Virus record (IMG/VR): IMGVR_UViG_3300024507_000282
Span: 1-40,860 of that record
DNA length: 40,860 bases
Reading direction: 5' to 3' (one strand)
From: a virus
The notes below the pieces were generated by a model, which had not been told where the DNA came from, made no database searches, and worked only from the letters and a program-made list of their open reading frames with translations. This document shows positions 10,362 to 29,182 of this stretch, one piece after another. The first letter of the stretch is position 1. Every line of letters starts with the position of its first letter. The translations under genes were made by a program, and so were the position numbers.

Positions 10362-11099
10362 ATGATGATTGGAATAATTGGCTACGGAATGGTGGGCAAG
10401 GCAGTAGAGTTTGGTTTCTCAAACACTGAAGTAATCTACTCAGACCCAGAATATAACACAACAACAATAGAAGATGTTTGTAGGGCTAACCCTTCTGCAA
10501 TCTTTGTCTGTGTTCCTACACCCACGGACGATACAAACTATTCCTTATTGCGCTCTGTGCTAGATACTATACAAAAGAACTACACAGGAATTACAGTAGT
10601 TAAAAGTACTGTACTACCTCAGTACTTAGATGGATATGATGTTGTTTACAATCCAGAGTTTTTAAGTAGAGCAACTGCTAACAATGACTTTGTCAATCCT
10701 CCCATGGTTATCCTAGGAGGACCTATGGATAAAACTCAGAAGTTGGCAGACGTCTACAGATCATATTCTACAGTCAATATGGATCAAGTGGTGTTTACTG
10801 ATATTAAAACAGCCGCTCTGGCCAAATACTGTATGAATAGTTTCTATGCTACCAAAGTTACATTTATGAATCAGATGTATGATGTAGCACAGCAACTAGG
10901 AGTAGAGTGGAGCCAAGTCACTGACATATTAGCAAAGCAACCTTGGATGGGAACACATCACTTTCAAGTGCCCGGACCAGATGGCCAAAGAGGATTCGGT
11001 GGTCCATGCTTGCCCAAAGACACAGAAGCACTAACTAAAGAATTTGAAGTACCTTTGTTAGATACTGTGCTACTATTGAACAAGGTATATAGACAATGA
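10362..11099 (+). CDS. ugd: Short UDP-glucose/GDP-mannose-type dehydrogenase
   Basis: This NAD-dependent sugar-nucleotide dehydrogenase of 245 aa has a Rossmann G7-x-G9-x2-G12, V-C-V-P-T-P near 50, S-T-V near 82, A-K-Y-C-M-N-S-F with K155 and N159, and the catalytic cysteine C216 in [10 protein letters not shown]. It would oxidise a UDP-hexose to the uronate. Usual family members are about 390-450 aa; here the whole C-terminal UDP-binding domain is absent and the gene stops soon after the cysteine motif. The dinucleotide MM start has no ribosome binding site and abuts a promoter. Its stop overlaps the first radical SAM gene as ATGA. Whether the short form is active alone is not known to me. 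Confidence 0.87.
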
Positions 11100-12121
11100 A
11101 AACATTATTAGTTGTCCTATCCGAAAAATGTAATTTAAACTGCTCCTACTGCGGAGTAGACAAGTGGAGTAAAAATCGCATCGACCCTGTGTTGTACTTG
11201 GCAGAGTTTCGTAAGATGCGAGAGCAATATCCAGACGAAACAATTAAGATTGATTTCTTTGGTGGAGAGCCTTTGCTTCAGATAGATTTGATAGAAGAGA
11301 TTTTAGACGGAGTCCGTGACGATGGCAACATCAAATTGTTTATGCCTACTAACGGGCTACTGCTCACAGAAGAAACTGTAGACTTCCTAGTTCAAAATAA
11401 CATAGAAGTTTCTATTAGTTTTGACGGGCTATGGCAGGATCGCAATAGACTACAATTAAACGGCAAAGGAACTAAACAACGTTTCTTTGAAAAGCGTGAA
11501 CTATTTAAAAAACTGCCCGGAGTTAGTTGTCACAGCATGATAACCAAAGGCTGTTATAATCTACTAGAAAATCATCTATGGATTAAAGAACATTTTGGAT
11601 TCAATCCAGAACTTACGCTGGTACGAGATGTAGGTACATGGGATCAGGACAGCGTCGATAAACTTAAAATAGGTATTACCGAGATGTTTGACTGGTACAT
11701 TGCCAATCCAGACCAAGGAATGCCCTATTTTGTGTTATTTTATCTAAGACACTTTTTAGATTATCATTCTAAGGGAGTTACTACAGATAATTGCGGTGCA
11801 GGTACAAATATGTTTATGTTCAGCGAAAACAAAGTTGTACCCTGTACCCGATTTAAAGACAGTCCGGACATGATAGCGGCCATACCACAATATGCCCAAA
11901 TGCCCGTTTGTCAAACCTGCGAAGTTAGAAACTACTGCAAAAAGGGCTGTTTATTTGAACAGATTAAAAACCAAGGTCCTATAGTTGAGCTCTGCGATAT
12001 CTATAAATATACGTACAGAGAAGTCAAGCGCATGACAGCGGCCTTAAGAAACAACGAATTTTTCAAACAAGTTGTTAAAGAAGAAATGGAAAAGGAATAC
12101 GAAGATGGCTACGAGTATTAA
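11096..12121 (+). CDS. Radical SAM/SPASM enzyme 1
   Basis: C12-x3-C16-x2-C19 (C-N-L-N-C-S-Y-C) binds the SAM [4Fe-4S] cluster and F-F-G-G-E-P is the SAM-contact motif. The C-terminal third has the cysteine spacing of a SPASM domain: D-N-C-G-A-G, V-P-C-T-R-F, then C-Q-T-C-E-V-R-N-Y-C-K-K-G-C and a late C. SPASM enzymes typically modify peptides or proteins (sulfatase maturation, thioether and C-C crosslinks in RiPPs). At 341 aa it is within the family range. It is translationally coupled to the dehydrogenase upstream. The substrate is unknown; the nearby Cys-rich tail protein is a candidate by location. Confidence 0.9.
   Translation: MKTLLVVLSEKCNLNCSYCGVDKWSKNRIDPVLYLAEFRKMREQYPDETIKIDFFGGEPLLQIDLIEEILDGVRDDGNIKLFMPTNGLLLTEETVDFLVQNNIEVSISFDGLWQDRNRLQLNGKGTKQRFFEKRELFKKLPGVSCHSMITKGCYNLLENHLWIKEHFGFNPELTLVRDVGTWDQDSVDKLKIGITEMFDWYIANPDQGMPYFVLFYLRHFLDYHSKGVTTDNCGAGTNMFMFSENKVVPCTRFKDSPDMIAAIPQYAQMPVCQTCEVRNYCKKGCLFEQIKNQGPIVELCDIYKYTYREVKRMTAALRNNEFFKQVVKEEMEKEYEDGYEY
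12002..12009 (+). promoter_or_regulatory. Possible internal T4-type late promoter motif
   Basis: A perfect TATAAATA lies inside the 3' end of the first radical SAM gene, about 96 bases before the start of the 76-residue gene. It could be chance, because it encodes an Ile-Tyr-Lys-Tyr stretch, or it could allow late transcription of the following tail-protein genes. Confidence 0.3.
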
Positions 12122-12335
12122 AAGGATGAACAAGGCGTTGTACAATGCGAGCTTCCACTTGTTAGAGGCAAGTAAGCATTTATCTAACGAAGAATTGTTT
12201 CGTGAAGAGGCGGAGTTCTTGGCTAATCTAGCAAAGGATATGGCTAGTATTATCCAACAAGAAGAAGAAAAAGTAACTGAAGATAAAATGCTGTCAGTTC
12301 TAGATGAAATATTAAACATTGAGGATATCAAATGA
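12105..12335 (+). CDS. Small helical acidic protein between two SPASM enzymes (76 aa)
   Basis: ATG 12105 has AGGA eight bases upstream; a longer frame from 12072 would overlap more of the previous gene. The protein looks entirely helical, with basic residues at the start (S-I-K-R-M-N-K) and heptad-like hydrophobic spacing through to the end. The C-terminus is acidic. No cysteine or glycine-rich core is present, so it does not look like a RiPP precursor core. It overlaps the next radical SAM start as ATGA. A role as partner or substrate carrier for the flanking SPASM enzymes is inferred from position only. Confidence 0.72.
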   Translation: MATSIKRMNKALYNASFHLLEASKHLSNEELFREEAEFLANLAKDMASIIQQEEEKVTEDKMLSVLDEILNIEDIK

Positions 12336-13507
12336 AAGTATCAAAAGGATCGTTTACCTTAGAGATTACAACTACAGCACTATGTAACTTAGGTTGCTCG
12401 TACTGTTTTGAAGGTGTGAAAACAGACACACGTAGACTCGATGACAAAGTAGAAATTTTAAAAGTACGCATCAAAGAGTTTTATGACAGCGCATGGTTCA
12501 AAGAAAACTATGACGAATTAATGATCGATTTCTGGGGAGGCGAACCTACACTTAATGGCAACTTAATTGTTGATATTATGAAAGAGTTCCAACACATCGA
12601 AAATATTGGATTTCATATCTACACAAACGGATACAACCGTAAACGTTTAGAAAATGTATTAGATAATGTCGACCTAAAAAAGATTAATATCCAGTTTAGT
12701 TATGACGGTAAGAATATCAACGACAAGTTCCGATTAACGCATAGTGGTAAACCTACATCGGCACAGGTTATTGAGAACTTTGAATATTTCGCACGTAAAG
12801 GTGCTAACTTGTCATTGAAAGCCACAGTGCCATTAAAGAGCATGACAGGTATGCTTGCGGCATGGCGTGACTACAAACAACTCTACGAGCGTTTTAAAGA
12901 TATTGGGCCTAACTGCCGTGTTGAGTATGCTCCGACTATTGACTATGTAACAGACCTACCAGTAGACGAACTACCGGGAATGGTAGCAGACTTCCGTAAA
13001 GAAATGTTGATGATTGCTAAGGAAGAAATCGAGTTTGTTAAAAAGTATGGGCATCATTTATGCACTTGGTTTAATGGCGGCGACGCAAAGAGTCACTGTC
13101 AGAGCGGCGCTTCGATGCATGCCATTAACGTAGACGGTAACAGTTATGCTTGCCACGGATCACTATATAGTCCAAATAAAGAATTAATGGGTTCTGGTGG
13201 TAATATTGATGATGCTGATTTTATTGATAAAGTTATTAAAATGGCTACAACTTATCAGCCAAAAGCACGTGAAGTCAGCGATATCTGCAAGGGCTGTGTA
13301 GCAACAACCTGTATGATTTGCCCTGTTTCTAGTTTAGATAATAGTAAGCAGGAAGACTACTTCGATCGCTGGACTGATCGTTGGGTAAATAACATGTGCG
13401 GTTTCTTTAAAACATTTGGAGAAATCGATAGAACAGTTCAGGCTTATCTAGATAGAGATTTAGCAGTTAAACCTGAGCTTGCAGAAAAGGAAAAGGAAAC
13501 TCAATAA
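12332..13507 (+). CDS. Radical SAM/SPASM enzyme 2
   Basis: C18-x3-C22-x2-C25 (C-N-L-G-C-S-Y-C) and D-F-W-G-G-E-P mark the radical SAM core. The C-terminus carries a SPASM-like set: S-H-C-Q-S-G followed by V-D-G-N-S-Y-A-C-H-G, then C-K-G-C, T-T-C-M-I-C-P and a final M-C-G-F-F. At 391 aa it is longer than enzyme 1 and not a close copy of it. It is coupled to the 76-residue gene by an ATGA overlap and is followed within two bases by the Cys-rich S74 tail protein. The enzyme class is clear; the substrate is not known. Confidence 0.9.
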   Translation: MKVSKGSFTLEITTTALCNLGCSYCFEGVKTDTRRLDDKVEILKVRIKEFYDSAWFKENYDELMIDFWGGEPTLNGNLIVDIMKEFQHIENIGFHIYTNGYNRKRLENVLDNVDLKKINIQFSYDGKNINDKFRLTHSGKPTSAQVIENFEYFARKGANLSLKATVPLKSMTGMLAAWRDYKQLYERFKDIGPNCRVEYAPTIDYVTDLPVDELPGMVADFRKEMLMIAKEEIEFVKKYGHHLCTWFNGGDAKSHCQSGASMHAINVDGNSYACHGSLYSPNKELMGSGGNIDDADFIDKVIKMATTYQPKAREVSDICKGCVATTCMICPVSSLDNSKQEDYFDRWTDRWVNNMCGFFKTFGEIDRTVQAYLDRDLAVKPELAEKEKETQ

Positions 13508-13508
13508 A

Positions 13509-14297
13509 ATGGCATGTAGCGGAACCTTTTGTAATCAAAACAGTAGTGGAACAACGACCTGTTTTAACCATCGTGGTGCGTGTTCAACAAACCGCCCACT
13601 ATCTCCAAGTGCAGAATTTGCAATAACCTCGGGTCGTATTACAGCGGCAGACATTGAAGACTTGCGTAGTAAAATTGACGCTGAACTACAAAGATATCAA
13701 TTGCACTTGACCAACAGTGGCACTATTAATCATTTTGGTGTTGTTTCAAGACTTGAAACTAGTGCATACGGCACTAGTACCTTAATTTCCGCTTCACATA
13801 TTAATAATATGGAAACTATGGTTCAGGGAATTCTTAACGTTAATGAACCAGTTGGATCTAACTATGCAGTATATACTAATCCTGCAGATGCTACAGGTGG
13901 TAATAACGTTTATAGTGCTGGATCAATTGCAACAACGACTCACTGGATTACTTTACGTGACAAATATAATGTTATGCGTCAGGACTGTATTTGTAACTCA
14001 GACTGTACGTGTAATGCTGTATGTAACTGCCACAATGACTGCGGCTGTAACTACAGTGATGAAAGACTAAAACAAAACATTAAATTCATTGGCACTAGAG
14101 AAGGTATTAACATCTACTCTTACAATTACACCTGGGACCCAGAAACAAAGTATATCGGTGTAATGGCACAGGAATTATTAGGTACAGAATACTCAGATGC
14201 AATCGAGTTGGGCGAAGATGGATTCTTTAAAGTCCATTATGACAGATTGCCAAATAAAGGAGAACTTTGGAGCGAACCAACAACTTTAAAGGATTAA
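13509..14297 (+). CDS. Tail-fibre-tip protein with C-x-C ladder and S74 chaperone domain
   Basis: Three parts are visible in 262 aa. Residues 1-30 hold four cysteines (3, 8, 18, 25) among Ser/Thr/Asn. Residues 40-157 are a low-complexity Ser/Thr/Asn fibre-like region. Residues 160-180 contain eight cysteines at 160, 162, 166, 168, 172, 174, 178 and 180, a perfect six-residue repeat C-x-C-x-x-x. Immediately after comes the S74 intramolecular chaperone: S183-D-E-R-L-K-Q-N-I, then Y-I-G-V-M-A-Q-E-L and a Y-D-R-L. S74 domains trimerise phage fibres and are then cut off by self-cleavage at the start of the domain, usually before the Ser. If so here, the cysteine ladder becomes the tip of the mature fibre. 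Confidence 0.9.
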   Translation: MACSGTFCNQNSSGTTTCFNHRGACSTNRPLSPSAEFAITSGRITAADIEDLRSKIDAELQRYQLHLTNSGTINHFGVVSRLETSAYGTSTLISASHINNMETMVQGILNVNEPVGSNYAVYTNPADATGGNNVYSAGSIATTTHWITLRDKYNVMRQDCICNSDCTCNAVCNCHNDCGCNYSDERLKQNIKFIGTREGINIYSYNYTWDPETKYIGVMAQELLGTEYSDAIELGEDGFFKVHYDRLPNKGELWSEPTTLKD

Positions 14298-14298
14298 G

Positions 14299-14916
14299 AT
14301 GAGTAGCATCATATATGATTTAGCCATAGTTCAAGATCGTGGCTCACACTGGTTTGTAACAAACGTAACTCAAAACACATTAGACAATCAAGCAGACAAA
14401 GACGAAAAAATTCTTCGTCTTTCCTACATGAGCCATCAACTTATTAAACAAGCACTGATGGAAGGCAAGAGAGTACATATCCATAAAACTCTATTAACAG
14501 GAGAAGTGTTGCCTGGAGAGTTTGATATCATTGATTTAAAAGAAACTGATCCTGTCCAAGAATCAAGAGATGCGGCAATGGTGAAAGTCCGTATGCTTGT
14601 AACCCCAGAGTTATCTAAAGCATCTGGTTTGTCCATGTATGGATTTATTGTTTTAAACAATGACCTGGCCAGCGCAGGCTACTTTATTACAAATGAGAAT
14701 AGAGAAGAAAAATATCTTGAGATTCTCGAAACAGGTGATGAAAAACTAATTGCTAAATTAGAAGATTATCTTAACTACAAGGATGAGATCGAAGCCGTTG
14801 CACAGTTAGAACGTAGATTCAGTGCATTTAAAAATGAACTTCGAACAGCATCGACAGTCGAAGAAATCAAATCAATAGAAGAGCGATTTTTAGAACGATT
14901 CTACGCTAACTTCTAA
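14299..14916 (+). CDS. Unknown protein with C-terminal coiled coil (205 aa)
   Basis: AAAGGA lies five bases before ATG 14299. The first ~130 residues are an alpha/beta domain with no recognisable motif (I-I-Y-D-L-A-I-V-Q-D-R-G-S-H-W-F near the start). The last ~60 residues have heptad-like helices (A-V-A-Q-L-E-R-R-F-S-A-F, then I-K-S-I-E-E-R-F-L-E-R-F). It directly follows the S74 tail protein and could be a fibre chaperone or attachment protein. That is inferred from position alone. Confidence 0.75.
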   Translation: MSSIIYDLAIVQDRGSHWFVTNVTQNTLDNQADKDEKILRLSYMSHQLIKQALMEGKRVHIHKTLLTGEVLPGEFDIIDLKETDPVQESRDAAMVKVRMLVTPELSKASGLSMYGFIVLNNDLASAGYFITNENREEKYLEILETGDEKLIAKLEDYLNYKDEIEAVAQLERRFSAFKNELRTASTVEEIKSIEERFLERFYANF

Positions 14917-14918
14917 TA

Positions 14919-15707
14919 ATGAACTATGGTGTTGTATACAAGTTTAAACCACACAATAAGATCAACGGAACATTATTTTACTGTTTCGAATACTTTAAAT
15001 TTCTAAGAAAGTATGTTGATGCAAAGTTTTATATTGTTGGTATAGACACAAAGGATCTTGAATTAGTTCTAGATATCCTTACGACAAAATACAACACCAC
15101 AGTTGATAACATCGTTCCTGTAACACTAGTAGAGTTATACAAACTCAATCTTGATCGTACACTTATCCTAGATGTAAACACCTTTTACGATTGTAAAGAA
15201 TTCTTAACTAACGAAATACATTGTTTCAGCAATGACACGCACGAGATGTTTCGTTATAAGAATAATCGCACAGTAACTTACTACGGACTGTATCCATATC
15301 AACGCTACGATGTAGAGTGTATCCTTAAATTAAACTTTGAGATATTCAAACCCTGTGCTAGCCAGCCAGGTGTATTTGTTAGTTGCTTGGATCCAAAGTA
15401 CATTCGATACGAGTACGAACGATTAAAGGCGCAGTTCAATCGTCCTATCCTATTAAAAAAACAACACACCGGCATTGGAGATTTGTTTGATCAAATTGAT
15501 GCTGTCCACTATATTCATGTTGTAAGAGATACTAACAACAGAATAATCCCAGAAGGGTTCTTCTATAATAAAGCAGTAACTATTGAAGAACCATACAATC
15601 TTGACATAGACTCAATACAATTACGCTATAATGATATAGTTGCTAACGGGCTAGGCAATTATACTCTTACAGAAAACTGTCCAATGGTGCAGGCATGTCT
15701 AAGATAA
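14919..15707 (+). CDS. Glycosyltransferase-like protein A (GT-B-like, 262 aa)
   Basis: The protein shares its layout with the next gene: an opening G-T-L-F-Y-C-F-E-Y-F-K-F-L-R after the first strand, a middle I-L-D-V-N strand, a segment R-Y-D-V-E-C-I-L-K-L-N-F-E-I-F-K-P and a C-terminal D-L-F-D-Q-I-D, then I-P-E-G-F-F-Y. These positions match N-terminal and nucleotide-sugar-binding elements of GT-B glycosyltransferases only in outline. No confident family signature is visible. It overlaps the next gene by 13 bases. Confidence 0.5.
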   Translation: MNYGVVYKFKPHNKINGTLFYCFEYFKFLRKYVDAKFYIVGIDTKDLELVLDILTTKYNTTVDNIVPVTLVELYKLNLDRTLILDVNTFYDCKEFLTNEIHCFSNDTHEMFRYKNNRTVTYYGLYPYQRYDVECILKLNFEIFKPCASQPGVFVSCLDPKYIRYEYERLKAQFNRPILLKKQHTGIGDLFDQIDAVHYIHVVRDTNNRIIPEGFFYNKAVTIEEPYNLDIDSIQLRYNDIVANGLGNYTLTENCPMVQACLR

Positions 15708-16591
15708 CACAGTTAGATAACTCCTATGACCTTTGGCTCAGTTATACTTGGAGCAACAACAATCACGGCATCTGTGGACACACCTACGAAGTTATAGATT
15801 ACTATCATATACTGCGTAACGATTTCAAAGTAGGCATATTGTTATGCGAAGACATTAACTGGGCAAGGTTTGAATCTAGTATTAGAAGCAAATACAATTT
15901 TACAGATGCTGAGATAGAAGACATGCAGTCTAACACAGTATTTGCCAACAGGCCCACTCTAGTTAAAGGACGTAACATATTATTCACAGACGGTGGCGTT
16001 GTTAATATGCAGTCTGTAACATTATTGTTTGATAATATCTTTTACTTTGCCTGCGGCAATAAAGAAATCAAATACAATGACAAAGGCAATGTGTGGATCT
16101 TACAAGACAATAGAGTATATGAACCTGTAAAGAAAAACGGTATCAACTACAAAAAGAAAATACTATTTGATAAGTTAAAACCTTTAGGCGAAAGCAAGGA
16201 TGCTGTGTTAGTATACGCTACTAAGAACTGTAGACAGTTGGATACCTACGAGGAGTTATTACAGTACGGAGATAACATCCTTGCTATAACTAACAAAGAA
16301 AATATGCCCAAACCTATGCCAGGGTTCACATTTGTCATTCCTCCTGTGGATAACTTATTCGAACAGTTTAGAACTTACGTGTATACTCCTGTTAAACGTA
16401 AATGGGATTGTAGTCCACGTTTCATAGCAGAGTGTAAATATTACGGCAAATCTGTAGTGTTTCATAACATTGATTATTGGGACGAAGATTTAGGATTATA
16501 CTGGCGTAACTGGGATATAGAAAACGACTTCGATAGTCTGTGTCTACGACCCAGTGACGATATAGTAAACATACTTAAAGGCATTATATGA
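15695..16591 (+). CDS. Glycosyltransferase-like protein B (298 aa), paralog of 14919-15707
   Basis: An early G-I-C-G-H-T-Y-E-V-I-D-Y motif resembles the glycine/histidine loop of GT-B enzymes. The C-terminal half has N-L-F-E-Q-F, then S-P-R-F-I-A-E-C-K-Y-Y-G-K, a typical GT-B sugar-nucleotide site shape (S-P-R-x-I-x-E-x). The gene before it has the same elements in the same order but weaker. Location in a sugar-enzyme island supports a glycosyltransferase role. Donor and acceptor unknown. The stop overlaps the next start as ATGA. Confidence 0.6.
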   Translation: MSKITQLDNSYDLWLSYTWSNNNHGICGHTYEVIDYYHILRNDFKVGILLCEDINWARFESSIRSKYNFTDAEIEDMQSNTVFANRPTLVKGRNILFTDGGVVNMQSVTLLFDNIFYFACGNKEIKYNDKGNVWILQDNRVYEPVKKNGINYKKKILFDKLKPLGESKDAVLVYATKNCRQLDTYEELLQYGDNILAITNKENMPKPMPGFTFVIPPVDNLFEQFRTYVYTPVKRKWDCSPRFIAECKYYGKSVVFHNIDYWDEDLGLYWRNWDIENDFDSLCLRPSDDIVNILKGII

Positions 16592-17451
16592 TTGTAGTTG
16601 AAATTTTAGAATACTGTAATTTTAAATGCTATTTCTGTAAAGCAAAGGACATCACTGAGCCTAAGTATATGCCGTTGGATTTATTCAAACGCATAATACT
16701 AGAAGCAAAGGAAATGGGCATAACTGAAATTGATCTAATCCCTGCCAAAGGGGAGCCTTTCCTACATCCAGACATCTATGAGATGCTGGCGTTTCTCAAT
16801 GAGCATATGAAGTATACTATTGTGTTTACTAATGTCACTGCAATTAATGTGCGTAAGTTAGCAGAAGTTCCAATGAACAACATTAAGTTGTGTGTTAGTT
16901 ACTATGGCGACACTCCTGCACGTTTCAAAGAACTAACAGCAATGGACAAGAACTTGTTTGATATTGTACATAAACGTTTACAAGAATTAACTGACGCAGG
17001 CATTCAATACAAACTTGAACGCAGAGACTATGGCTACGAGTTTAACTACACAGGCACAAAGGTAACAGAAGAGTTTGATCCGAAGCTCAAGTGTCACTTC
17101 CACAGCATGCCTAAGATTATGGCTAATGGCGATGTAGTATTTTGTAAGTTCGTAAAGGACAACACACCTCCTAACGACAAGGTTGCGTTTGCCAACTTAC
17201 ATAATACATCATTAAAGGATGCACTAACAGATCCTATTAGATACAAGTTCTTCGATAGCCAAAGCATTTGTGTAAAACATTGTAGTAGTTTTAGCAGAAC
17301 TTGTTACAAAGAAAGTATTAGTAGTTTTAAATTAATGGCCGCAAGTAAGAAGGCTTACTTTGCTAACCCCGATCCAGTAGATCAACAGTACGAAGAGATA
17401 GAACGTGAGACTATACAACGAGCTCAGCAACAAGTTACAGATAGACCGTGA
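16588..17451 (+). CDS. Radical SAM enzyme 3
   Basis: C10-x3-C14-x2-C17 (C-N-F-K-C-Y-F-C) starts right at the N-terminus, and the SAM motif is I-P-A-K-G-E-P. A C-terminal region with K-C-H-F-H-S-M-P-K-I-M-A-N-G-D-V-V-F-C, then S-I-C-V-K-H-C-S-S-F-S-R-T-C is SPASM/twitch-like and probably binds a second cluster. Length 287 aa. It is coupled to the glycosyltransferase-like gene by an ATGA overlap, and its own 3' end overlaps the next radical SAM gene by 47 bases. Substrate unknown. Confidence 0.88.
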   Translation: MIVVEILEYCNFKCYFCKAKDITEPKYMPLDLFKRIILEAKEMGITEIDLIPAKGEPFLHPDIYEMLAFLNEHMKYTIVFTNVTAINVRKLAEVPMNNIKLCVSYYGDTPARFKELTAMDKNLFDIVHKRLQELTDAGIQYKLERRDYGYEFNYTGTKVTEEFDPKLKCHFHSMPKIMANGDVVFCKFVKDNTPPNDKVAFANLHNTSLKDALTDPIRYKFFDSQSICVKHCSSFSRTCYKESISSFKLMAASKKAYFANPDPVDQQYEEIERETIQRAQQQVTDRP

Positions 17452-18430
17452 CGAACCTATTTGCGAACGTGCTAAGTTAGATACTGGTACGCATTGCAAT
17501 TATCGTTGCGAGTTCTGTTATTACAAAACACAGTTAAATGAAGTAACTGAGTTTGAAGTCATACGACAACGTATTGACTATCTCGTTGCCTGTGGCATTA
17601 AAGAAGTTGACTTGAGTGGCGGTGAGTCTAGCATACACAAACAATGGTTTGACATTCTTGACTATTGTAAAAGCAAAGGCTTAAAGATTAGTTGTCTAAG
17701 TAATGGCTACAAGTTTGCTGACAAGGAGTTCTTGCGTAAGAGTAAAGAACACGGCTTAGATGAAATACTGTTCAGTGTACACGGTTACGATAAAGAAAGC
17801 CACAACATACTAGTTGGGCATCGCAAGGGCTTTGAAAACATTATCCAAGCAATACACAATGCACATGAGCAAGGTGTTCTTGTGCGTGTTAATTGTACAG
17901 TAACACATAAGAACTATAAGAACTTGCCAACTAAGTTTGTTCAATTAGTTAACGAACTAAAGCCGTTTGAAGTTAACTTCTTAACTCTTAACTACTGGGA
18001 CGATGCAGGCATACAGGAAACTATCGACTACGGAGAAGTAACTCCTTACGTACATCAAGCAATAGATTTACTAAAGGATAGTGTTCCTAAACTTAACGTT
18101 CGTTACACGCCGTATTGCTTTATGAAAGGATACGAGCAGTACGTATGCAACTACTACCAACACATATATGACATTTATGATTGGAACATTGCTGTGTACA
18201 ATGGTGACATAGACCCAGACGTGTACCGAGCAGACCCACACAAGGCAATGTATGATGCGGCCGCATTTAAACGTAACCGTACCTATTACAAAACAAAGGA
18301 CTGCTTAAACTGCAAGCACTACTATATCTGCGATGGTGTAGAGAAACAAATCAAAGACATTAAACTACGACCCGAAGAAGGTCCTAAGATTGATCAAGTA
18401 AATTTTTACCGCAAAGGATACTACAAATGA
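17405..18430 (+). CDS. Radical SAM enzyme 4
   Basis: The start is GTG 17405. C31-x3-C35-x2-C38 (C-N-Y-R-C-E-F-C) follows a 30-residue leader, and D-L-S-G-G-E-S is the SAM motif. The first 200 residues are a classical partial TIM barrel (S-C-L-S-N-G-Y, I-L-F-S-V-H-G-Y). Extra cysteines near the end (C-L-N-C-K-H-Y-Y-I-C) may hold an auxiliary cluster. Length 341 aa. It overlaps the previous gene by 47 bases and the next one as ATGA. Function unknown; the Rossmann-type SDR that follows may act on its product. Confidence 0.88.
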   Translation: MRLYNELSNKLQIDRDEPICERAKLDTGTHCNYRCEFCYYKTQLNEVTEFEVIRQRIDYLVACGIKEVDLSGGESSIHKQWFDILDYCKSKGLKISCLSNGYKFADKEFLRKSKEHGLDEILFSVHGYDKESHNILVGHRKGFENIIQAIHNAHEQGVLVRVNCTVTHKNYKNLPTKFVQLVNELKPFEVNFLTLNYWDDAGIQETIDYGEVTPYVHQAIDLLKDSVPKLNVRYTPYCFMKGYEQYVCNYYQHIYDIYDWNIAVYNGDIDPDVYRADPHKAMYDAAAFKRNRTYYKTKDCLNCKHYYICDGVEKQIKDIKLRPEEGPKIDQVNFYRKGYYK

Positions 18431-19059
18431 ATATTATAGTCGTAGGCGGTGGAACCTTTGGTCGATTTGGTAATGACTTTGTAAGACAAGCAAAGGCAGA
18501 TGGACATGTTGTCCGTGTGCTTTCTCACAGAACTAACGATGACACAGATGCTACGCTAACTTTCTTAACAGCAGAAGATGCAGTAACTAAGTTCAATAGC
18601 ATTACACAAGACTTAGATACAATTGATATCTTGTTGTACAACTCAACATATAAAGGCTATCCAGACGATCCTAGTACATTTACTAGCAAAGGTGTAATAA
18701 AAGAAAAGTTATATGTACATGGATTTTATGTACAGGCAATCATACCACACGCACTATCTATCGAAGCATTAAAGAAAATGACAACACAGTCTAAAATTGT
18801 GTTTATGACCACAGATGTAATCTACGATAGAGAACGCACACTTGGACTACACAAGTTGGGCTACTACGGTGGCAAGGCATATCAACATCAATTGATGTTA
18901 GCACTAGCAGAACACAACGACAAAGATGTAACTGTGAGTTCAGTAAGTCCCGTGTTTGACTATGAGGATAGAAAAAACTATCAAAGGCAGTTTAATACAG
19001 TCTATGAACATATCTTTGGCACTACACAGAATGGAAAAATATATGACTGCTGGGAATAA
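18427..19059 (+). CDS. Short-chain dehydrogenase/reductase-like protein (210 aa)
   Basis: The protein has an N-terminal V-V-G-G-G-T-F-G-R-F-G glycine-rich loop, a D-I-L-L-Y-N-S-T strand in the position of the usual N-N-A-G, M-T-T-D-V-I after the fifth strand, and Y146-x3-K150 as the catalytic pair. It should bind NAD(P)(H) and oxidise or reduce an alcohol/carbonyl, probably a sugar. It lies between radical SAM genes 4 and 5, overlapping both, which suggests the substrate is shared. Confidence 0.8.
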   Translation: MNIIVVGGGTFGRFGNDFVRQAKADGHVVRVLSHRTNDDTDATLTFLTAEDAVTKFNSITQDLDTIDILLYNSTYKGYPDDPSTFTSKGVIKEKLYVHGFYVQAIIPHALSIEALKKMTTQSKIVFMTTDVIYDRERTLGLHKLGYYGGKAYQHQLMLALAEHNDKDVTVSSVSPVFDYEDRKNYQRQFNTVYEHIFGTTQNGKIYDCWE

Positions 19060-19711
19060 CTTACACGACAACTATGAGTTCTTCCAAGGCGGCTTGGATG
19101 GCGCAAACTCCTATACTCTTTATGTTACATATAAATGTAATTGGTTCTGTAACTACTGCTCAGAAGATACACACAATCGTCCAGATGTAACCATAGAAGA
19201 CTTACAGCGTAAGGTACAGGCCATTCCTCCTAACAGCGATGTAGCCATTACAGGAGGAGAACCGGGTACACTTAATAAAGAAGTAATGCTATGGTTGCTA
19301 ACAGAATTAAAAAGCAAAGGTTGTTTCATTAATGTAAACACTAACGGAACATTCTTTAAGAAACATAAAAACGTTTGCCATATCCCAGATAGTTTTCTAT
19401 ATCACTGTAGCGAACACTTAGATGATGAAGAGATATGGATTCCAGAACATGTTGATCGTTCTAAGATAGACTTTCAACTTGTGATAACAGATGATACTGC
19501 GGACAGATTAGAATACTATATCAACAAGTATCCAGACATAAAGTTTTTGATATTTGGTGCAGACAATGTAATTGGAAAAGGATTAAGTAGAGCAAATGGA
19601 TTTAAGGTTTATCAAAAGTTTAAAGATAAGATTGATCCAAACAGTTACATACATTTGATTACAACCTGTAGAGAAGTAAATGATATACGGAAACTAAAAG
19701 CATTGAGATGA
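19043..19711 (+). CDS. Radical SAM enzyme 5 (short, triplet member 1)
   Basis: ATG 19043 is chosen because GGA lies seven bases upstream; the open frame extends further but would run deep into the SDR gene. C32-x3-C36-x2-C39 (C-N-W-F-C-N-Y-C) is followed by E-D-T-H-N-R-P, and A-I-T-G-G-E-P-G is the SAM motif. The 222 aa are just a minimal barrel with no auxiliary cluster domain. Shares C-N-W-x-C-x-Y-C, D-T-H-N-R-P, N-T-N-G and Y-H-C-x-E with the next two genes. The stop overlaps the next ATG. Confidence 0.88.
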   Translation: MTAGNNLHDNYEFFQGGLDGANSYTLYVTYKCNWFCNYCSEDTHNRPDVTIEDLQRKVQAIPPNSDVAITGGEPGTLNKEVMLWLLTELKSKGCFINVNTNGTFFKKHKNVCHIPDSFLYHCSEHLDDEEIWIPEHVDRSKIDFQLVITDDTADRLEYYINKYPDIKFLIFGADNVIGKGLSRANGFKVYQKFKDKIDPNSYIHLITTCREVNDIRKLKALR

Positions 19712-20286
19712 AAGAGATAGAACTTCCTTTAACTTATAAGTGTAATTGGCACTGTGACTATTGTGTAGCAGACACACACAATCGTCCAGAGTTACCTTAC
19801 GAGGAAGTTCTGCGTAGAGTAGAGGCTATTGAGCCAGGTACAGAAGTTACCTTTGGTGGAGGTGAGCCAGGACTACTAAAGCGTGATCAACTAGAACATA
19901 TTATTAAAATACTCAAAGACAAAGGTTGTGTGATTGATTTACTAACTAATGGACTGTTCTTTAAACGTCATATGCCTTTGGTACATGAGTTTGGTAAGAT
20001 ACACTATCACTGTGTTGAGTACTTACCAGACGACATAGAGTTTCCAGACTTACAATTAAATCATGTATCCTATGGATTGGTAGTTACAAACACAAACTTC
20101 CTAGACGGAAGCATACATGAAATGATTAGACGTTACCCGCACATTAAGTTTTTATTGTTGCCCGATGTGCGTAGTCAAAAGAAGATTAACTTAAACTTAA
20201 TGATGGACTTCTTTAATGAACACGGCGATAAGGTACATCCAGGATCATTGCAGGAATTCATCACAGTTGTGGCAAGGTGGCACTAA
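19708..20286 (+). CDS. Radical SAM enzyme 6 (short, triplet member 2)
   Basis: C12-x3-C16-x2-C19 (C-N-W-H-C-D-Y-C) and D-T-H-N-R-P match the flanking two genes. The SAM motif is F-G-G-G-E-P-G. At 192 aa it is one of the shortest radical SAM proteins here, with a Y-H-C-V-E motif near residue 110 and no second cluster domain. It is coupled to its neighbours by an ATGA overlap before it and a TAATG overlap after it. Such short barrels resemble activase or QueE-sized enzymes, but no specific family fits. Confidence 0.87.
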   Translation: MKEIELPLTYKCNWHCDYCVADTHNRPELPYEEVLRRVEAIEPGTEVTFGGGEPGLLKRDQLEHIIKILKDKGCVIDLLTNGLFFKRHMPLVHEFGKIHYHCVEYLPDDIEFPDLQLNHVSYGLVVTNTNFLDGSIHEMIRRYPHIKFLLLPDVRSQKKINLNLMMDFFNEHGDKVHPGSLQEFITVVARWH

Positions 20287-20900
20287 TGGCAATTCACGCA
20301 CAAGAACGAGAAATTGAATTAGTCGTTACATGGGTATGTAACTGGCACTGCGACTATTGCTGTGTTGATACACACAATCGTCCTAAACTTACTATGGATG
20401 AAGTAAAGGCCAAGTTAGACAAAGTTATTCCAGGATACAACGTAACACTCAGTGGCGGCGAAGTTGGCAGTATGAAACGTGCAGACATTGAATATATCCT
20501 AGACGAACTAGAAAAGAAAGGTTGCCGCCCTAGCATTAATACTAATGGATTGTTTATCAAACGCTATCGTGATCTATTGCCTCGCTTTGATACTATCCTG
20601 TATCACTGTAGCGAAAACTTAGACTTAGACGAAGAGATCATTATAGATCCAGAATTAAATTTACAGTATCTATTAATAGTTACTGACACTAACTTTGACA
20701 AGTTAGAAGCATTTATTAACAAGTATTCAGACATAGAGTTTCATTTAGTTGCGGCTACTATGCCCGAAGGTATCAATGGTGTAACATTATCAAACAAACT
20801 CAAACACGCTATGCTGACTAGATTCCACAAGCGTATGACAGCAGAATCTAAAGTGCGAGTATTTAAGGAGAAGGACTTTGACTCAATCATCTATCTATAA
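20286..20900 (+). CDS. Radical SAM enzyme 7 (short, triplet member 3)
   Basis: ATG 20286 overlaps the previous stop as TAATG, with AAGG eight bases upstream. C18-x3-C22-x2-C25 (C-N-W-H-C-D-Y-C) is followed by another Cys (C26) and D-T-H-N-R-P. The SAM motif is changed to L-S-G-G-E-V-G, losing the usual Pro. 204 aa. The three tandem genes 19043-20900 are related by duplication but have diverged strongly outside the motifs, so they probably act on different substrates or form a hetero-complex. Confidence 0.87.
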   Translation: MAIHAQEREIELVVTWVCNWHCDYCCVDTHNRPKLTMDEVKAKLDKVIPGYNVTLSGGEVGSMKRADIEYILDELEKKGCRPSINTNGLFIKRYRDLLPRFDTILYHCSENLDLDEEIIIDPELNLQYLLIVTDTNFDKLEAFINKYSDIEFHLVAATMPEGINGVTLSNKLKHAMLTRFHKRMTAESKVRVFKEKDFDSIIYL

Positions 20901-21786
20901 AGTCCAACCTAACGCAGACATTGAACGTATTGAGTTAGAGTTAACTTCTGCTTGTAATCTCAAATGTCCGTTGTGTGTTCGAGCAATAACCAACGTGCCT
21001 GATGAAAACAATTATAGAAGTCTAGAAGAAATAATTGCACAGTTAGACAGTTATCCAAACTTAAAGTTTATTACTATTGCTGGCCCAATCTCAGAGCCAA
21101 CAACTTATCCTAAACTATTGGAGTTGATTGCTTATATTAACAAACGTGATATTGAGATATCTCTGTACATCAACGGAGATACTAGAAATGATCTGTATTA
21201 TAAAAAACTAGGCACATTGTTTAGAAACAAGACAGGACATGTATACTTTACCATCTGCGGTAGCACACAAGAGTTACACGGAACATACAGAGTTAATTCA
21301 AAGTTAGATAGAGTGTTATCTAGATTAGAAATAGTAGATAAGTTCAGCGGTGGGAAGGGTGTATTAACTTGGATTGTGTTTAACTATAACGAGCAGGACT
21401 TTATAGAAAACTATCCAAAGTTCAGTGAACGATACAATACAGAATATTTCCATACTTTGCCAATTACAGAGCATCACCAGTTAAAGAGTAAAATACACTT
21501 ACCAGATCGTTTAAAGGCATTGTACGAACGAGAAATAGATAGAAAGGATTTTAACAATATAGTATGCCCAGCCAACGCTAGTAACTATATACAAATAAGA
21601 CATGACGGCAAGATAGATCCTTGTTCGTTATATAGGCAGTTTGGGGAAGAACATTGTTGGGAATGTAGTAAGAAGAATCTTACAACACTAAGAACAAATA
21701 AGATATTCCAATGTGCAGAACCAGAAACAGAAACATCATCAAGGAGTGTGTTGTTATATTATGAACGTCACTATGAAAAAGAGTGA
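20878..21786 (+). CDS. Radical SAM enzyme 8 (S-E-P-T group, member 1)
   Basis: The start is TTG 20878, supported by AAGGAG seven bases upstream. C26-x3-C30-x2-C33 (C-N-L-K-C-P-L-C) is followed by a variant SAM motif G-P-I-S-E-P-T-T-Y. F-T-I-C-G-S-T-Q-E-L-H-G-T-Y-R is shared with the next two genes. The C-terminus has V-C-P-A-N-A-S, D-P-C-S-L-Y and H-C-W-E-C, a SPASM-like auxiliary cysteine set. 302 aa. Function unknown; the S-E-P-T form instead of G-G-E-P and the C-G-S-T-Q-E segment are the group's hallmarks. Confidence 0.88.
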   Translation: MTQSSIYKVQPNADIERIELELTSACNLKCPLCVRAITNVPDENNYRSLEEIIAQLDSYPNLKFITIAGPISEPTTYPKLLELIAYINKRDIEISLYINGDTRNDLYYKKLGTLFRNKTGHVYFTICGSTQELHGTYRVNSKLDRVLSRLEIVDKFSGGKGVLTWIVFNYNEQDFIENYPKFSERYNTEYFHTLPITEHHQLKSKIHLPDRLKALYEREIDRKDFNNIVCPANASNYIQIRHDGKIDPCSLYRQFGEEHCWECSKKNLTTLRTNKIFQCAEPETETSSRSVLLYYERHYEKE

Positions 21787-22687
21787 AGTAGAAGAGATGG
21801 AGATGGACTTGACAGGAGTCTGTAATCTCTCATGCCCACTGTGTACTCGTAACTATCAACATGCGAATCACTTGGTTGAAAAGAATGTACGAGACATAGA
21901 CACTATTATTAAACAGTTAGATCAGTACACAGGACTTAAACGTTTCTTTGTTGCAGGTGTAGTCAGTGAGCCGACTATGTACAAAGACTTCATTAAGTTT
22001 ATTGAATACCTAAACAGTCGTGATATCTATTACGAAATCTTTACCAACGGCAATACTAGAGATACAGCATGGTGGGAACAGTTGGGTAGCATTGTACCTG
22101 AGAAATGTATGTGTGCATTTACTGTCTGCGGAAGCACACAGGAAATACATGCCAAGTATCGTGTGGGCAGTGACCTACAACAGATCCTAGACAATGCCGC
22201 GGCGTTCCGTAAGAACAGACGTAAGAATGATTGGATACAACATATCCGTTTTGAGTACAATGCAGAGGATAGAGAAAGCCCAGAGATGAAAGCAATCTTT
22301 GATCAATTCAGTAATGTAATGAAAGTTGAAACAGAAGGTGTGCGTAGAGTAAACGTCTACAACAAAGAAGTAGAACTAGGCATTCGTCCTGTTAAGACCC
22401 GGGAGCAAACTATTAAGTTGTTGTTTAAGAATCGTCCTGAGCCCAACGACGGTAAACAATACAACATACAATGCCGTAGTCTACAACAAAAGAAAATATA
22501 CATTAACCAATGGGGACAGGTCAGTGCCTGTTATACTCATGCTGAGAATGAGCAAGACTACTTTCCAGCAGACAAAGAAGACATGGACTACAGTGATATC
22601 CTATCCTTTAAGTTTCCAGATTGTTTCCTATGTGAGAAGCGTACACGTACCTTTATTGATAAAATGGGATTGGACTTTGTATGTTAA
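21761..22687 (+). CDS. Radical SAM enzyme 9 (S-E-P-T group, member 2)
   Basis: C21-x3-C25-x2-C28 (C-N-L-S-C-P-L-C), G-V-V-S-E-P-T-M-Y and V-C-G-S-T-Q-E-I-H-A-K-Y-R place it with its two neighbours. The C-terminal half has C-R-S-L-Q-Q-K-K, V-S-A-C-Y-T and D-C-F-L-C-E-K, again an auxiliary-cluster pattern. ATG 21761 or 21773 are both possible starts; neither has a well-spaced ribosome binding site, and translation may be coupled to the upstream gene, which it overlaps. About 308 aa. Confidence 0.87.
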   Translation: MNVTMKKSEVEEMEMDLTGVCNLSCPLCTRNYQHANHLVEKNVRDIDTIIKQLDQYTGLKRFFVAGVVSEPTMYKDFIKFIEYLNSRDIYYEIFTNGNTRDTAWWEQLGSIVPEKCMCAFTVCGSTQEIHAKYRVGSDLQQILDNAAAFRKNRRKNDWIQHIRFEYNAEDRESPEMKAIFDQFSNVMKVETEGVRRVNVYNKEVELGIRPVKTREQTIKLLFKNRPEPNDGKQYNIQCRSLQQKKIYINQWGQVSACYTHAENEQDYFPADKEDMDYSDILSFKFPDCFLCEKRTRTFIDKMGLDFVC

Positions 22688-23592
22688 AGATGCCTAAGGT
22701 TATTGACCTAGAGTTAGAACTTACAACATACTGTAATGCTCAGTGTGGACTATGCTATAGAAACTATACAGCATTCAAAGAACACTACCCAGAGAATAAA
22801 GTTCGTCCACTACAGGAAGTCATAGATCAATTAGAAACGTTTCCAGACTTAGAATGGATACGTCTTGTTGGTACTATATCGGAACCAACTATCTACAAAG
22901 ACTTCTTTCCTTTAGTCAAATACATGAAGGCCCGTGGACTAAAGATTGAAATCTGTACTAACGGAGCAACACACAAGCCCGACTGGTGGAAAGAGTTATC
23001 TACTCTAATGAACGCAGATGACAAAGTTTATTTCAGCATCTGTGGTAGCACACAAGAACTACACGAAATATATCGTACAGGAACTAGTCTAGCAAAAATA
23101 CTAGAGAATGCTCGTGCGTTCCGTAGTGATAATAAGAATGACTATGCTCAGTGTATTCGTTTTTATTATAACAGCGATGACTTTGATGGGCTAGAGTTCA
23201 AACAAATGGTCAGCGAGTTTAGTCATGTCTATTGGACAGAAACATTCCTGCAGAAAGAAGAATCCAATTACGTAGACAAAACGAACCTACTTAAATTAAG
23301 ACCCAATCCTAAAAAAATAGATGACTATCAGCAGATGGATAAGTTTGCCCGTGCCAAATATGCTAGTCCAGTTAAAGGCAAAGCCTACTGCATGAGTTGG
23401 GAAAACAAAAGCCAGCAAGTGGACATTGACGGCAAAGTATATCCCTGCTATTTGTTTTTGGAAGCCAGCAAAGGCAAAGAATGGGACGGCGACTACGAGA
23501 AAATTTTGAACATGCAGTACGAAGTCTGTAAATACTGCGACCGTGCAGTTATAGAACTCTGCGATAAAAAAGACTTACGTTACATTATATGA
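22681..23592 (+). CDS. Radical SAM enzyme 10 (S-E-P-T group, member 3)
   Basis: C18-x3-C22-x2-C25 (C-N-A-Q-C-G-L-C), G-T-I-S-E-P-T-I-Y-K-D and S-I-C-G-S-T-Q-E-L-H-E-I-Y-R are seen. The C-terminus has Y-C-M-S-W, V-Y-P-C-Y-L-F and V-C-K-Y-C-D. At 303 aa it matches its two paralogs. Its start overlaps the previous stop by seven bases, and its stop overlaps the next ATG. The three proteins are similar over the whole length, so duplication preceded divergence. Confidence 0.88.
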   Translation: MLKMPKVIDLELELTTYCNAQCGLCYRNYTAFKEHYPENKVRPLQEVIDQLETFPDLEWIRLVGTISEPTIYKDFFPLVKYMKARGLKIEICTNGATHKPDWWKELSTLMNADDKVYFSICGSTQELHEIYRTGTSLAKILENARAFRSDNKNDYAQCIRFYYNSDDFDGLEFKQMVSEFSHVYWTETFLQKEESNYVDKTNLLKLRPNPKKIDDYQQMDKFARAKYASPVKGKAYCMSWENKSQQVDIDGKVYPCYLFLEASKGKEWDGDYEKILNMQYEVCKYCDRAVIELCDKKDLRYII

Positions 23593-25115
23593 ATCATTGT
23601 TTACTTTTGGCTGTGAATGTTGTGCTAATTGATAGAGTTGGCGGCATACACAGAATGGCTAATCACCTTCGTTCCTTGAATTGGGACTGCGAAGTTGTGG
23701 ACTTTATAATGTATTGGACTCCGGAAGAACTGTTAGAACTTGTAAAATCTAGAGTTACATCAAATACAAAGTTTATAGGATTTTCTTATCTTTGGAACAG
23801 AGCGCAGTCTATACATAAATTTCGTCTAGCCTTTGAATGGATAAAAAAGAATTATCCAGACATAGTTTTTATATCAGGCGGGCAATCGCAACTTATTGAT
23901 TATTCATATTCGGACTATCACATTTATGGCTATGGCGAGTATGCTATAGAAGAGTTACTTAACTATAAATTTTCAAATGGCCAAAGTCCAAAGTTTGAAA
24001 ATATTTCTAGCAGAACTAAGATTATAAATGCCAATAGAGACTATCCTGCATATCCTATGAAACATGCTATGATCAAATATGAGGATAGAGACTTTTTAAT
24101 GCCTAACGAATGGGGCAGAATAGAATTCAGTCGAGGTTGTAAGTTTGCCTGTAAGTTCTGTAATTTTCCTGTGATCGGTGCCAAAGAAGATTATACTAGA
24201 GATATTAAAAACGTAAGAGAACAATTCATGGATGCCTATGATCGTTTTGGTATAGAGAACTATCATATTAGCGACGAAACATTCAATGACAGGCCCTATA
24301 AGATTTCTAGAATAGCAGACTTAGTTGAAACGTTACCGTGGAAGCCATACTTTGCTGGATTCATCCGTGCTGATTTATTAATAAATCGTAAGCACGATAG
24401 AGAAGATTTATTAAGAATGGGGTTCCTTGGACATTTCTATGGCATAGAAACATTTAACCCTAAATCAGCAAGTTACATAGGAAAAAATGGTAACACTACA
24501 CGAATGAAAGAAGGACTAGTAGAAGTTAAAGAATACTTTCAAAAGCACGTAGGTAACAAGTACAGGGCAACTATCAGTTTGATAGCAGGCCTGCCACACG
24601 AAACATTAGACAGTTTAGAAACTACTTACCAATGGGTTAAGAATCATTGGAGAGATCAGTTAGCAGTGGCTTGTCCTTTAGAAATAATGGACTGGGGAGA
24701 CTCTAGAGAAAATAGAATTTCCGATGATTTTCAAAAATACGGATATGAACAGATTGAAATAGATCTTAATCCTAATCCTAATTTTATATTTGAAAAAGAT
24801 AAAACAGTAGACAGAACAAAAGTAATGTTACCTGGAACAGGTAAAAATCCTCCCATAGCCTGGAAGAATCCTAACATGGATATTATGCAAGCATGGGATT
24901 GGTGTAACAAATTAGATAAAATTTGGTTAGTGGGAGAAAAGAATCTTGCTAGGACTGAAGGATACTTATTGTCAAGAATATTGTGTCACGAAAACGGCGA
25001 TGTGCTTACTCTTGAAGAAAAATTAAAATTAGTCGAAGAGACTGCTATTAAACACACAGAAAATTTTAAAGTGTTTGTCAACAACTATAAAACGAAGAAA
25101 CTAAATTGGAAATAA
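23589..25115 (+). CDS. Radical SAM enzyme 11 (B12-binding-like N-terminal domain)
   Basis: At 508 aa this is the largest radical SAM protein here. Residues 1-125 look like the Rossmann-like domain of B12-binding radical SAM enzymes (K-F-I-G-F-S-Y-L-W-N, I-V-F-I-S-G-G-Q-S, G-Y-G-E-Y-A), but no D-x-H-x-x-G cobalamin motif is visible. The core is C184-x3-C188-x2-C191 after S-R-G, then Y-H-I-S-D-E-T-F and G-L-P-H-E-T. Such enzymes do methylations, ring contractions and C-C bonds. It overlaps the previous gene as ATGA and the following dehydratase by ten bases. Confidence 0.88.
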   Translation: MNHCLLLAVNVVLIDRVGGIHRMANHLRSLNWDCEVVDFIMYWTPEELLELVKSRVTSNTKFIGFSYLWNRAQSIHKFRLAFEWIKKNYPDIVFISGGQSQLIDYSYSDYHIYGYGEYAIEELLNYKFSNGQSPKFENISSRTKIINANRDYPAYPMKHAMIKYEDRDFLMPNEWGRIEFSRGCKFACKFCNFPVIGAKEDYTRDIKNVREQFMDAYDRFGIENYHISDETFNDRPYKISRIADLVETLPWKPYFAGFIRADLLINRKHDREDLLRMGFLGHFYGIETFNPKSASYIGKNGNTTRMKEGLVEVKEYFQKHVGNKYRATISLIAGLPHETLDSLETTYQWVKNHWRDQLAVACPLEIMDWGDSRENRISDDFQKYGYEQIEIDLNPNPNFIFEKDKTVDRTKVMLPGTGKNPPIAWKNPNMDIMQAWDWCNKLDKIWLVGEKNLARTEGYLLSRILCHENGDVLTLEEKLKLVEETAIKHTENFKVFVNNYKTKKLNWK

Positions 25116-26074: not shown

Positions 26075-26661
26075 AACTGTTTGAGCAACGCCTATGTGAA
26101 TACACAGGTGCTCCTTATGCTGTGGCAGTAGATCGTTGCACCAATGCTATACTGTTAGCAATGGAATACTATGGTAAGAAGAAACAGAAAGTCAGTATAC
26201 CAACACAGACATACCTAAGTGTTCCAATGACACTGATCAACTACGGATACAATGTATGGTTAGAGTTCGATGATTGGATGGGCAACTATCGTATTGGACA
26301 CACTAATGTCTATGACTATGCTGTAGGTTTTGAAAAGAATATGTATGTGCCTGGGCAAGTCCAGTGTGTTAGTTTTCAACAGAAGAAGCGTCTAGCAATA
26401 GGTAAGGGCGGAGCAATTCTATTAGACAACAAAGAGATGTATGAGAAACTAAAACGTATGCGCCACGACGGTAGAGACAGTGCTATTCCTACAGCACAGG
26501 ACACAGGTATCATTATGGGTTATCATATGTACATGAGCCCAGACGAAGCCGCACGTGGTGTATTGTTGCTTAATCAACTCAGCGAACACTACACTAATGG
26601 CTCACACAAAGACTATCCAGACATTTCAAAGTTTGCGTGTTTAAAGGACTATGCAGTATGA
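26026..26661 (+). CDS. Mini DegT/DnrJ/EryC1 sugar aminotransferase
   Basis: The large PLP domain is recognisable: Y-A-V-A-V-D-R-C-T-N-A-I (31-42), I-P-T-Q-T-Y, V-S-F-Q-Q-K-K with likely PLP lysine K121, G-K-G-G-A-I, and G-Y-H-M-Y-M-S-P-D-E-A-A-R-G. The protein stops at 211 aa, whereas family members are about 360-400, so the small C-terminal domain is absent. AAAGGA lies six bases before ATG 26026, and the gene overlaps the dehydratase's 3' end by 49 bases. The expected reaction is transamination of a keto-sugar; whether the short form is active is uncertain. Confidence 0.82.
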   Translation: MSKDIKRDYHNNNDFVELFEQRLCEYTGAPYAVAVDRCTNAILLAMEYYGKKKQKVSIPTQTYLSVPMTLINYGYNVWLEFDDWMGNYRIGHTNVYDYAVGFEKNMYVPGQVQCVSFQQKKRLAIGKGGAILLDNKEMYEKLKRMRHDGRDSAIPTAQDTGIIMGYHMYMSPDEAARGVLLLNQLSEHYTNGSHKDYPDISKFACLKDYAV

Positions 26662-29173: not shown

Positions 29174-29182
29174 GGAATAAAA

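Follow-up and report, generated by a model that had tools for sequence, protein, structure and literature searches.

The window analysed here, a 40,860-nucleotide stretch of DNA, belongs to a virus record of 104,860 bases. It carries a gene for a protein with a ladder of cysteine pairs, next to genes for two radical SAM (rSAM)/SPASM maturases, in the following arrangement.

11096-12121, + strand: rSAM-A, a radical SAM/SPASM maturase of 341 aa with CNLNCSYC and SPASM-type cysteines
12105-12335, + strand: small helical protein of 76 aa, a putative partner, between rSAM-A and rSAM-B
12332-13507, + strand: rSAM-B, a radical SAM/SPASM maturase of 391 aa with CX3CX2C and a SPASM auxiliary-cluster cysteine pattern
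13509-14297, + strand: ladder protein, 262 aa
13515-13583, + strand: N-terminal Cys/His motif of the ladder protein (C3, C8, C18, H21, C25), semi-conserved in the alignment
13986-14048, + strand: cysteine ladder of four C-x-C-[N/H] units at residues 160-180, repeating every 6 residues
14052-14057, + strand: predicted S74 autocleavage point between Y182 and S183, with S183/K188 invariant and S74-less relatives stopping here
14055-14258, + strand: S74 intramolecular chaperone core (Pfam PF13884, 1.4e-5; HMM alignment of homologues)
14299-14916, + strand: cassette partner of 205 aa (PHROG 25260, 5.3e-15), next after the ladder gene in most cassettes
14919-16591, + strand: two conserved neighbours of 262 and 298 aa, co-conserved, glycosyltransferase-like only by eye

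The ladder protein has cysteines only at residues 3, 8, 18, 25, 160, 162, 166, 168, 172, 174, 178 and 180. A recheck of the translated ORF confirmed every number in the preliminary description, which had reported the last eight as a series with an exact period of six. Not even three rungs arose in 200,000 shuffles of the protein (0/200,000), and under an i.i.d. model four rungs would be expected at ~5e-9. Viral relatives were collected by a tblastn-confirmed search and by DNA patterns, and an alignment of 16 homologues, with identity down to ~25%, clearly revealed that all 12 invariant columns (C162, D165, C166, C168, N169, V171, C172, C174, C178, C180, N181 and Y182) are inside the ladder. 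C160 is kept in 15/16 homologues and C162, C166, C168, C172, C174, C178 and C180 in 16/16; the first ladder rung is lost in L128. The majority-residue fraction averages 0.80 across the ladder, vs 0.40 in the preceding part of the protein. A cysteine pattern not conserved in homologues had been named beforehand as an observation that would refute the proposed fibre tip; it is instead the best conserved part of the protein. The N-terminal Cys/His motif, which possibly has a docking or metal role, is also present in two Bdellovibrionales proteins (L289 and L290). In the AlphaFold2 monomer, pLDDT is <50 across residues 162-181, and Foldseek gave no meaningful fold match with this low-confidence model. 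Among cultured phages, tblastn with the ladder protein matched only S74 domains of Microcystis phages. The four-rung C-x-C pattern retrieved mostly low-complexity or wrong-frame DNA from viral contigs, with no new family member among the matches listed, and nearly all of its 59 matches in genome contigs were spurious, L179 (Bdellovibrionales) being useful and L173 possibly so.

Immediately after Y182 the protein continues with SDERLKQ. Consistent with the earlier placement of the S74 start at S183-D-E-R-L-K, just past the ladder, Pfam Peptidase_S74 (PF13884) matches residues 183-223 (E=1.4e-5, 25.7 bits vs a gathering score of 22), a partial match to profile positions 1-49 of 58. In MyRF, a C-terminal coiled coil of the S74 domain (ICA) drives trimerisation. 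The window protein (end ..VHYDRLPNKGELWSEPTTLKD, with no trimeric coiled-coil helix) and most close relatives stop soon past the S74 core, without such a helix, which is present in L128 and L140. The catalytic Ser-Lys pair S183/K188, with a spacing of 5, is invariant in 12/12 S74-bearing members and is spaced equally to S911/K916 of endoNF; both MyRF and endoNF are cut just N-terminal of the equivalent serine, and the Ser-Lys pair is required (PMC8326128). The domain thus resembles the endosialidase C-terminal domain and the MyRF ICA in its SDERLK start, its Ser-Lys spacing and its position C-terminal to the functional part (PMC8326128), but its core here is without the C-terminal coiled coil, it is variably present, and it is encoded in two ORFs in many relatives. 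Autocleavage in the window protein itself, whose S74 core has no MyRF-type coiled coil, is therefore a prediction.

The S74 domain is missing from four viral members (L145, L150, L156 and L162) and from three Bdellovibrionales members, which stop 0-2 residues from the predicted cut (..CGCNY before the S, ..CGCHY and then stop, ..CNYTQ and then stop). Ends among these members read ..CDCNYTQ, ..CECNYTA, ..CGCNYG, ..CGCHY and ..CGCHY, and two more S74-less phages end ..CGCNYS and ..CGCNYA. Because S74-less relatives stop where S74 would cut, these sequences indicate that the ladder is the mature C-terminus and very probably its exposed tip. The proposal of the preliminary description that the ladder forms an exposed tip is strengthened in this respect: the ladder abuts the S74 cut, the Ser-Lys pair does not vary, and relatives without the domain end at the same point. 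On the rSAM-B tree, S74 presence changed at least four times, with two changes forced by well supported branches, implying that the ladder/S74 junction was used repeatedly.

A split S74 was observed in several loci, where the ladder ORF stops shortly past the Ser-Lys start (..SDIRLKTEIIYF, then stop) and the remainder, with the C-terminal helix, is a separate downstream ORF, often in another frame:

L248:7163-7968, L251:9074-10059, L253:9144-10119, L258:9097-10001, L259:9156-10037 and L268:9040-9851: split-S74 loci

A chaperone supplied in trans, or recoding, are candidate readings of this arrangement. Programmed frameshifting was considered, but two cistrons are the better fit, as the ORFs have starts of their own and some of these carry a ribosome-binding-site-like sequence.

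The rSAM genes beside the ladder were absent from the preliminary description. The rSAM-B stop lies 1 bp ahead of the ladder ATG. Both enzymes match Pfam Radical_SAM (rSAM-A, 3e-15; rSAM-B, 1.4e-10), and rSAM-B passed the radical SAM/SPASM hallmark test (CX3CX2C plus auxiliary-cluster cysteines), with C18, C22, C25, C256, C274, C319, C322, C327, C330 and C356 invariant in the alignment; rSAM-A has invariant SPASM cysteines corresponding to those of rSAM-B. rSAM-A is kept upstream of rSAM-B in most ladder loci. The small helical protein is kept at the same position in hexad-type cassettes and in the Bdellovibrionales locus L179, and has no convincing family match in Pfam or NCBIfam. Pfam and NCBIfam likewise recognised no RRE (leader-binding) domain in rSAM-A, rSAM-B or the small helical protein. 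The 205-aa partner has a homologue in Campylobacter phage CP220 at 3.7e-23, and the 262-aa and 298-aa neighbours match no Pfam family and only PHROGs of unknown function. The order rSAM-A, small helical protein, rSAM-B, ladder, 205-aa protein recurs across very divergent phages and in Bdellovibrionales (L001-L005, L131, L150, L156, L162 and L179), and also in L127 and L128, where the rest of the ladder protein is hardly recognisable. The cassette is evidently kept while the ladder protein outside the ladder is rewritten.

The linkage between rSAM-B and the ladder was tested in both directions. rSAM-B was present in 13/13 ladder records searched. In the reverse direction, an rSAM-B profile search of viral contigs gave 49 loci, comprising a family of 38 (tblastn E<=2e-13) and an outgroup of 11 weaker rSAM loci (E>=9e-7). 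By an automatic criterion (an ORF with >=7 Cys in 24 aa, on the same strand, within 4 kb), a ladder was found in 36/38 family loci vs 0/11 outgroup loci, counts that overstate independence as the family set holds near-copies (L237/L239, L241/L267, L260/L261 and L263/L264). The background for the dense-Cys part of this criterion was 1/455 ORFs (>=150 aa) in unrelated bacterial loci. The ladder ORF starts directly after rSAM-B in 31 of the 36; the remaining two family loci are L251, with a degenerate ladder by eye, and the short contig L257, with none. HMM searches further revealed that rSAM-A and the 205-aa protein accompany rSAM-B across most of this locus set. These results bear on the view that the ladder is a plain disulfide ladder that staples fibre chains after release, its linkage to rSAM genes being hitch-hiking in a mobile gene island. 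Such a ladder would suit an extracellular tip with an even number of cysteines, and would make an enzyme unnecessary. However, a search that starts from rSAM-B and finds the ladder in nearly every family locus, and the persistence of the two genes together when most other genes differ, make this view very improbable.

The enzymes point to a class of peptide maturases. PapB (NF047865) is the top NCBIfam profile for rSAM-A (3.7e-32) and for the window rSAM-B (7.9e-23), and the best match of 12/12 rSAM-B members (top E 1.1e-30) as well as of the enzymes of L252, L262, L271, L289 and CP220; SCIFF, CXXX-repeat and Cys-rich maturase profiles match behind it. With 81 bits for rSAM-B and 112 bits for rSAM-A vs the NF047865 cut-off of 340, these matches, all far below NCBIfam cut-offs, are a class assignment and not membership. 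In a structure model of rSAM-B with pLDDT 79, the best Foldseek matches were CteB (5WHY) and anSMEcpe (4K36-39), followed by ChlB, TigE and SuiB. CteB is a thioether-forming maturase, and anSME acts on a Cys. The ladder units, C-x-C-[N/D/H] with period 6 or 7, differ from the PapB substrate motif CX3D/E; PapB itself forms Cys-Asp/Glu links within CX3D units and also accepts different spacings (PMC9413430).

Ladders of several types were found among the relatives. The hexad ladder of the window follows C-x-C-[N/H]-x-[D/V], heptad ladders (C-T-C-N-C-N-Y) occur in L252, L253, L254, L258, L259 and L271, a tetrad ladder (C-H-S-[N/D]) in L262, and irregular ladders in L269 and L270. The period is thus 6, 7 or 4, and the C-x-C-[N/D/H] unit recurs. 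Across ladders of differing period, ~90% of C-x-C pairs are followed by N, D or H (per-protein mean; N 66%, D 12% and H 12%, vs overall frequencies of 9%, 6.5% and 2.4%). By its sequence, this would look like a repeated enzyme-recognition unit.

Metal, disulfide or radical cross-links had all been envisaged for the tip in the preliminary description, with T4 gp37 as a model. In the gp37 needle, H-x-H repeats hold iron. The ladder resembles it in having two-residue-spaced, ligand-like repeats near a fibre tip, but has Cys in place of His and adjacent maturases, and its trimer and metal are hypothetical. A metal tip would have the C-x-C pairs of three chains stacked on the fibre axis, holding Fe, Zn or an iron-sulphur cluster, with the rSAM genes doing something else or only helping to load the site. 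Regular C-x-C rungs ahead of an S74 domain, which is trimeric, would be expected of such a tip, and further ligands could come from the conserved N/D/H that follows each pair. However, the tight and specific rSAM/SPASM association would stay unexplained, many relatives have no S74 domain or obvious trimer, and the variable period, together with the C-H-S-N type of L262, does not fit well with a single fixed axial metal geometry. We therefore regard a metal tip as unlikely. Because a conserved radical SAM/SPASM pair lies directly upstream, the radical-crosslinked option is favoured, and the gp37 iron analogy is not.

Structural genes lie near the cassette (virion structural PHROG at 32421, 2.2e-23; tail-fibre PHROG at 35081, 7.6e-7), and from these and the S74 domain we infer that the ladder protein is a virion part. 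Positions 16588-31505 of the window form an island with about eight more rSAM genes, of which one gives a weak B12-binding match, and with amidinotransferase-like, polysaccharide dehydratase, DegT aminotransferase, PIG-L-like and deacetylase-like genes. The ladder might in principle be an attachment scaffold, on which rSAM enzymes and the sugar, amidino and glycosyl-transfer enzymes of the island act, for example by S-glycosylation, to give a sugar-studded tip. Sugar epimerases, an amidinotransferase, a DegT aminotransferase, PIG-L, a deacetylase and several rSAMs do accompany the ladder, such an island is found in phages and on two Bdellovibrionales chromosomes, and rSAM genes also cluster with an amidinotransferase in CP220 (PMC2853527). 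However, distant heptad-type loci share, as far as tested, only rSAM-A, rSAM-B, the ladder and the 205-aa gene, and the putative glycosyltransferases have no Pfam match, so that we hold a scaffold to be improbable.

A ladder is also present in cultured phages. Campylobacter phages of the CP220 group encode an rSAM-B homologue with 28-34% identity, and CP220 also has an rSAM-A homologue. The relevant CP220 genes are:

L283:10158-11762: gp140, Cys heptad ladder protein
L283:13968-15137: gp136, rSAM-B homologue

gp140, encoded ~2.2 kb upstream of the rSAM-B homologue, has a heptad ladder (CLCDCNYCTCDCNY..) and scattered C-x-C-[N/D/Q] units, and the ladder copy number is lower in phage WX1 (vB_CjeM_WX1) than in CP220. 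The 2010 genome paper reported a 21-bp repeat as the only intragenic one in CP220 and called its 11-12 radical SAM proteins "highly unusual", with no link made between the two; its authors supposed that the latter had metabolic roles and were in part dispensable (PMC2853527). gp140 was absent from the 11 virion bands identified in that study (PMC2853527). The ladder contains neither Lys nor Arg, so that a tryptic digest would miss it, and a standard search would fail to identify cross-linked peptides. Two other Cys-dense CP220 proteins (L296, CP220 24206-24574; L302, CP220 138106-138528) have NC-x-x-C repeats without C-x-C-[N/D/H] units.

In bacteria, the cassette was found in three Bdellovibrionales genomes of the 369 in the phylum, on large contigs:

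L179/L285, L289/L291-L292 and L290/L293-L294: Bdellovibrionales ladder loci

Two of these genomes (G061 and G016) hold most of the window's island between housekeeping genes, including both rSAM maturases, the ladder, the 205-aa gene, the two conserved neighbours, more rSAMs, an amidinotransferase and sugar genes. A phage-only origin was accordingly rejected. In G061, a small, repeat-rich, fibre-like ORF lies just upstream of the ladder cassette.

Taken together, we consider it likely that the ladder forms the core of a RiPP-like, rSAM-modified maturation system for a fibre-type protein, probably thioether-linked. This reading is favoured because the ladder and rSAM-B find each other in both search directions, because the cassette persists while the rest of the ladder protein changes, because PapB leads the enzyme profile matches and CteB and anSME the Foldseek matches of rSAM-B, because N/D/H after C-x-C recurs across ladder periods, because relatives end at the S74 cut site and the S74 state changed repeatedly, and because cultured CP220 has ladder, rSAM-A, rSAM-B and 205-aa homologues. 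The ladder protein, which would be translationally coupled to rSAM-B, is the presumed substrate, and rSAM-A and rSAM-B, probably with the small helical protein, would act on its C-x-C-[N/D/H] units. Most likely, cysteine sulphur would be joined to a nearby carbon, giving thioether staples of a ranthipeptide-like kind, before or during assembly. The S74 chaperone would then cut between Y182 and S183 and expose the stapled ladder as the C-terminal tip of a presumably trimeric fibre, where it may contact the host surface; in relatives without S74, the protein would simply end at the tip.

Several points weigh against the RiPP-like reading. Synteny of rSAM genes and ladder is not proof of a substrate relation, and, as other rSAM genes crowd the island, the true substrate of rSAM-A and rSAM-B could differ. 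The maturase scores far below cut-offs, a ladder motif other than the CX3D of PapB, the lack of a recognised RRE, the low pLDDT of the ladder, the failure to find a fold match for its protein, an S74 core with no coiled coil and the absence of gp140 among the 2010 CP220 virion bands also count against it.

Bacteria are already known to have rSAM systems that act on Cys-repeat substrates. The PapB/PapA (freyrasin) ranthipeptide system likewise combines an rSAM/SPASM enzyme with a repeated-Cys substrate, but has one enzyme and a small peptide, in contrast to two enzymes and a putative phage substrate of 150-530 aa here. CXXX-repeat, Cys-every-fifth and SCIFF systems share regularly spaced Cys in an rSAM substrate, and their maturase profiles also match, but they concern bacterial peptides with other spacings and neither an S74 nor a virion link. 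The His-Xaa-Ser operon (HxsA/B/C/D) encodes two rSAM enzymes, a small protein and a repeat protein. The cassette has the same architecture, but its repeat is Cys-based; membership was rejected, with only weak, below-cut-off matches to HxsB (rSAM-A and rSAM-B) and HxsC (the gene at 17405), and the small helical and ladder proteins were unmatched by the HxsD and HxsA profiles.

The presence of a Cys-pair ladder beside rSAMs of the peptide-cross-linking type in many uncultured phages, in Campylobacter phages in culture and in a few predatory bacteria suggests stapled protein tips. Our search of the open-access literature turned up neither a Cys-ladder phage protein linked to rSAM enzymes nor an rSAM system that targets a structural-type phage protein carrying a cleavable chaperone. 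To our knowledge, no other radical-SAM-modified virion structure is known. We tentatively propose, at somewhat less than even confidence, that in a widespread group of phages, and in some predatory bacteria, dedicated rSAM enzymes cross-link surface-fibre tips after translation, a virion part being a displayed RiPP and S74 autocleavage the release of a follower domain. If true, this would be the first known radical-SAM-modified virion structure and a trait common to phages and predatory bacteria, would explain part of the 2010 puzzle of the many radical SAM proteins in CP220-type phages, and would predict that chemically stapled tips of high stability exist as a new class, along with many new cross-linking enzymes that recognise a simple C-x-C-[N/D/H] unit. 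Phages already in culture would allow an rSAM-modified tip to be tested directly by mass spectrometry.

Elsewhere in the window's virus record (G000:C1:73.7-77.1 kb, L304), CsgG-like and curlin-repeat-like proteins and DnaK were recognised by eye only, genes that are odd for a phage. In a Clostridia MAG, a 49-aa ORF (IDCSCNMVCACNVDCSCSG; L173:6622-6771) has the same hexad, and two other short ORFs upstream, which also contain Cys, begin much alike (MNFEI/MNFEV); by their sequences, these short ORFs are possible small RiPP precursors.
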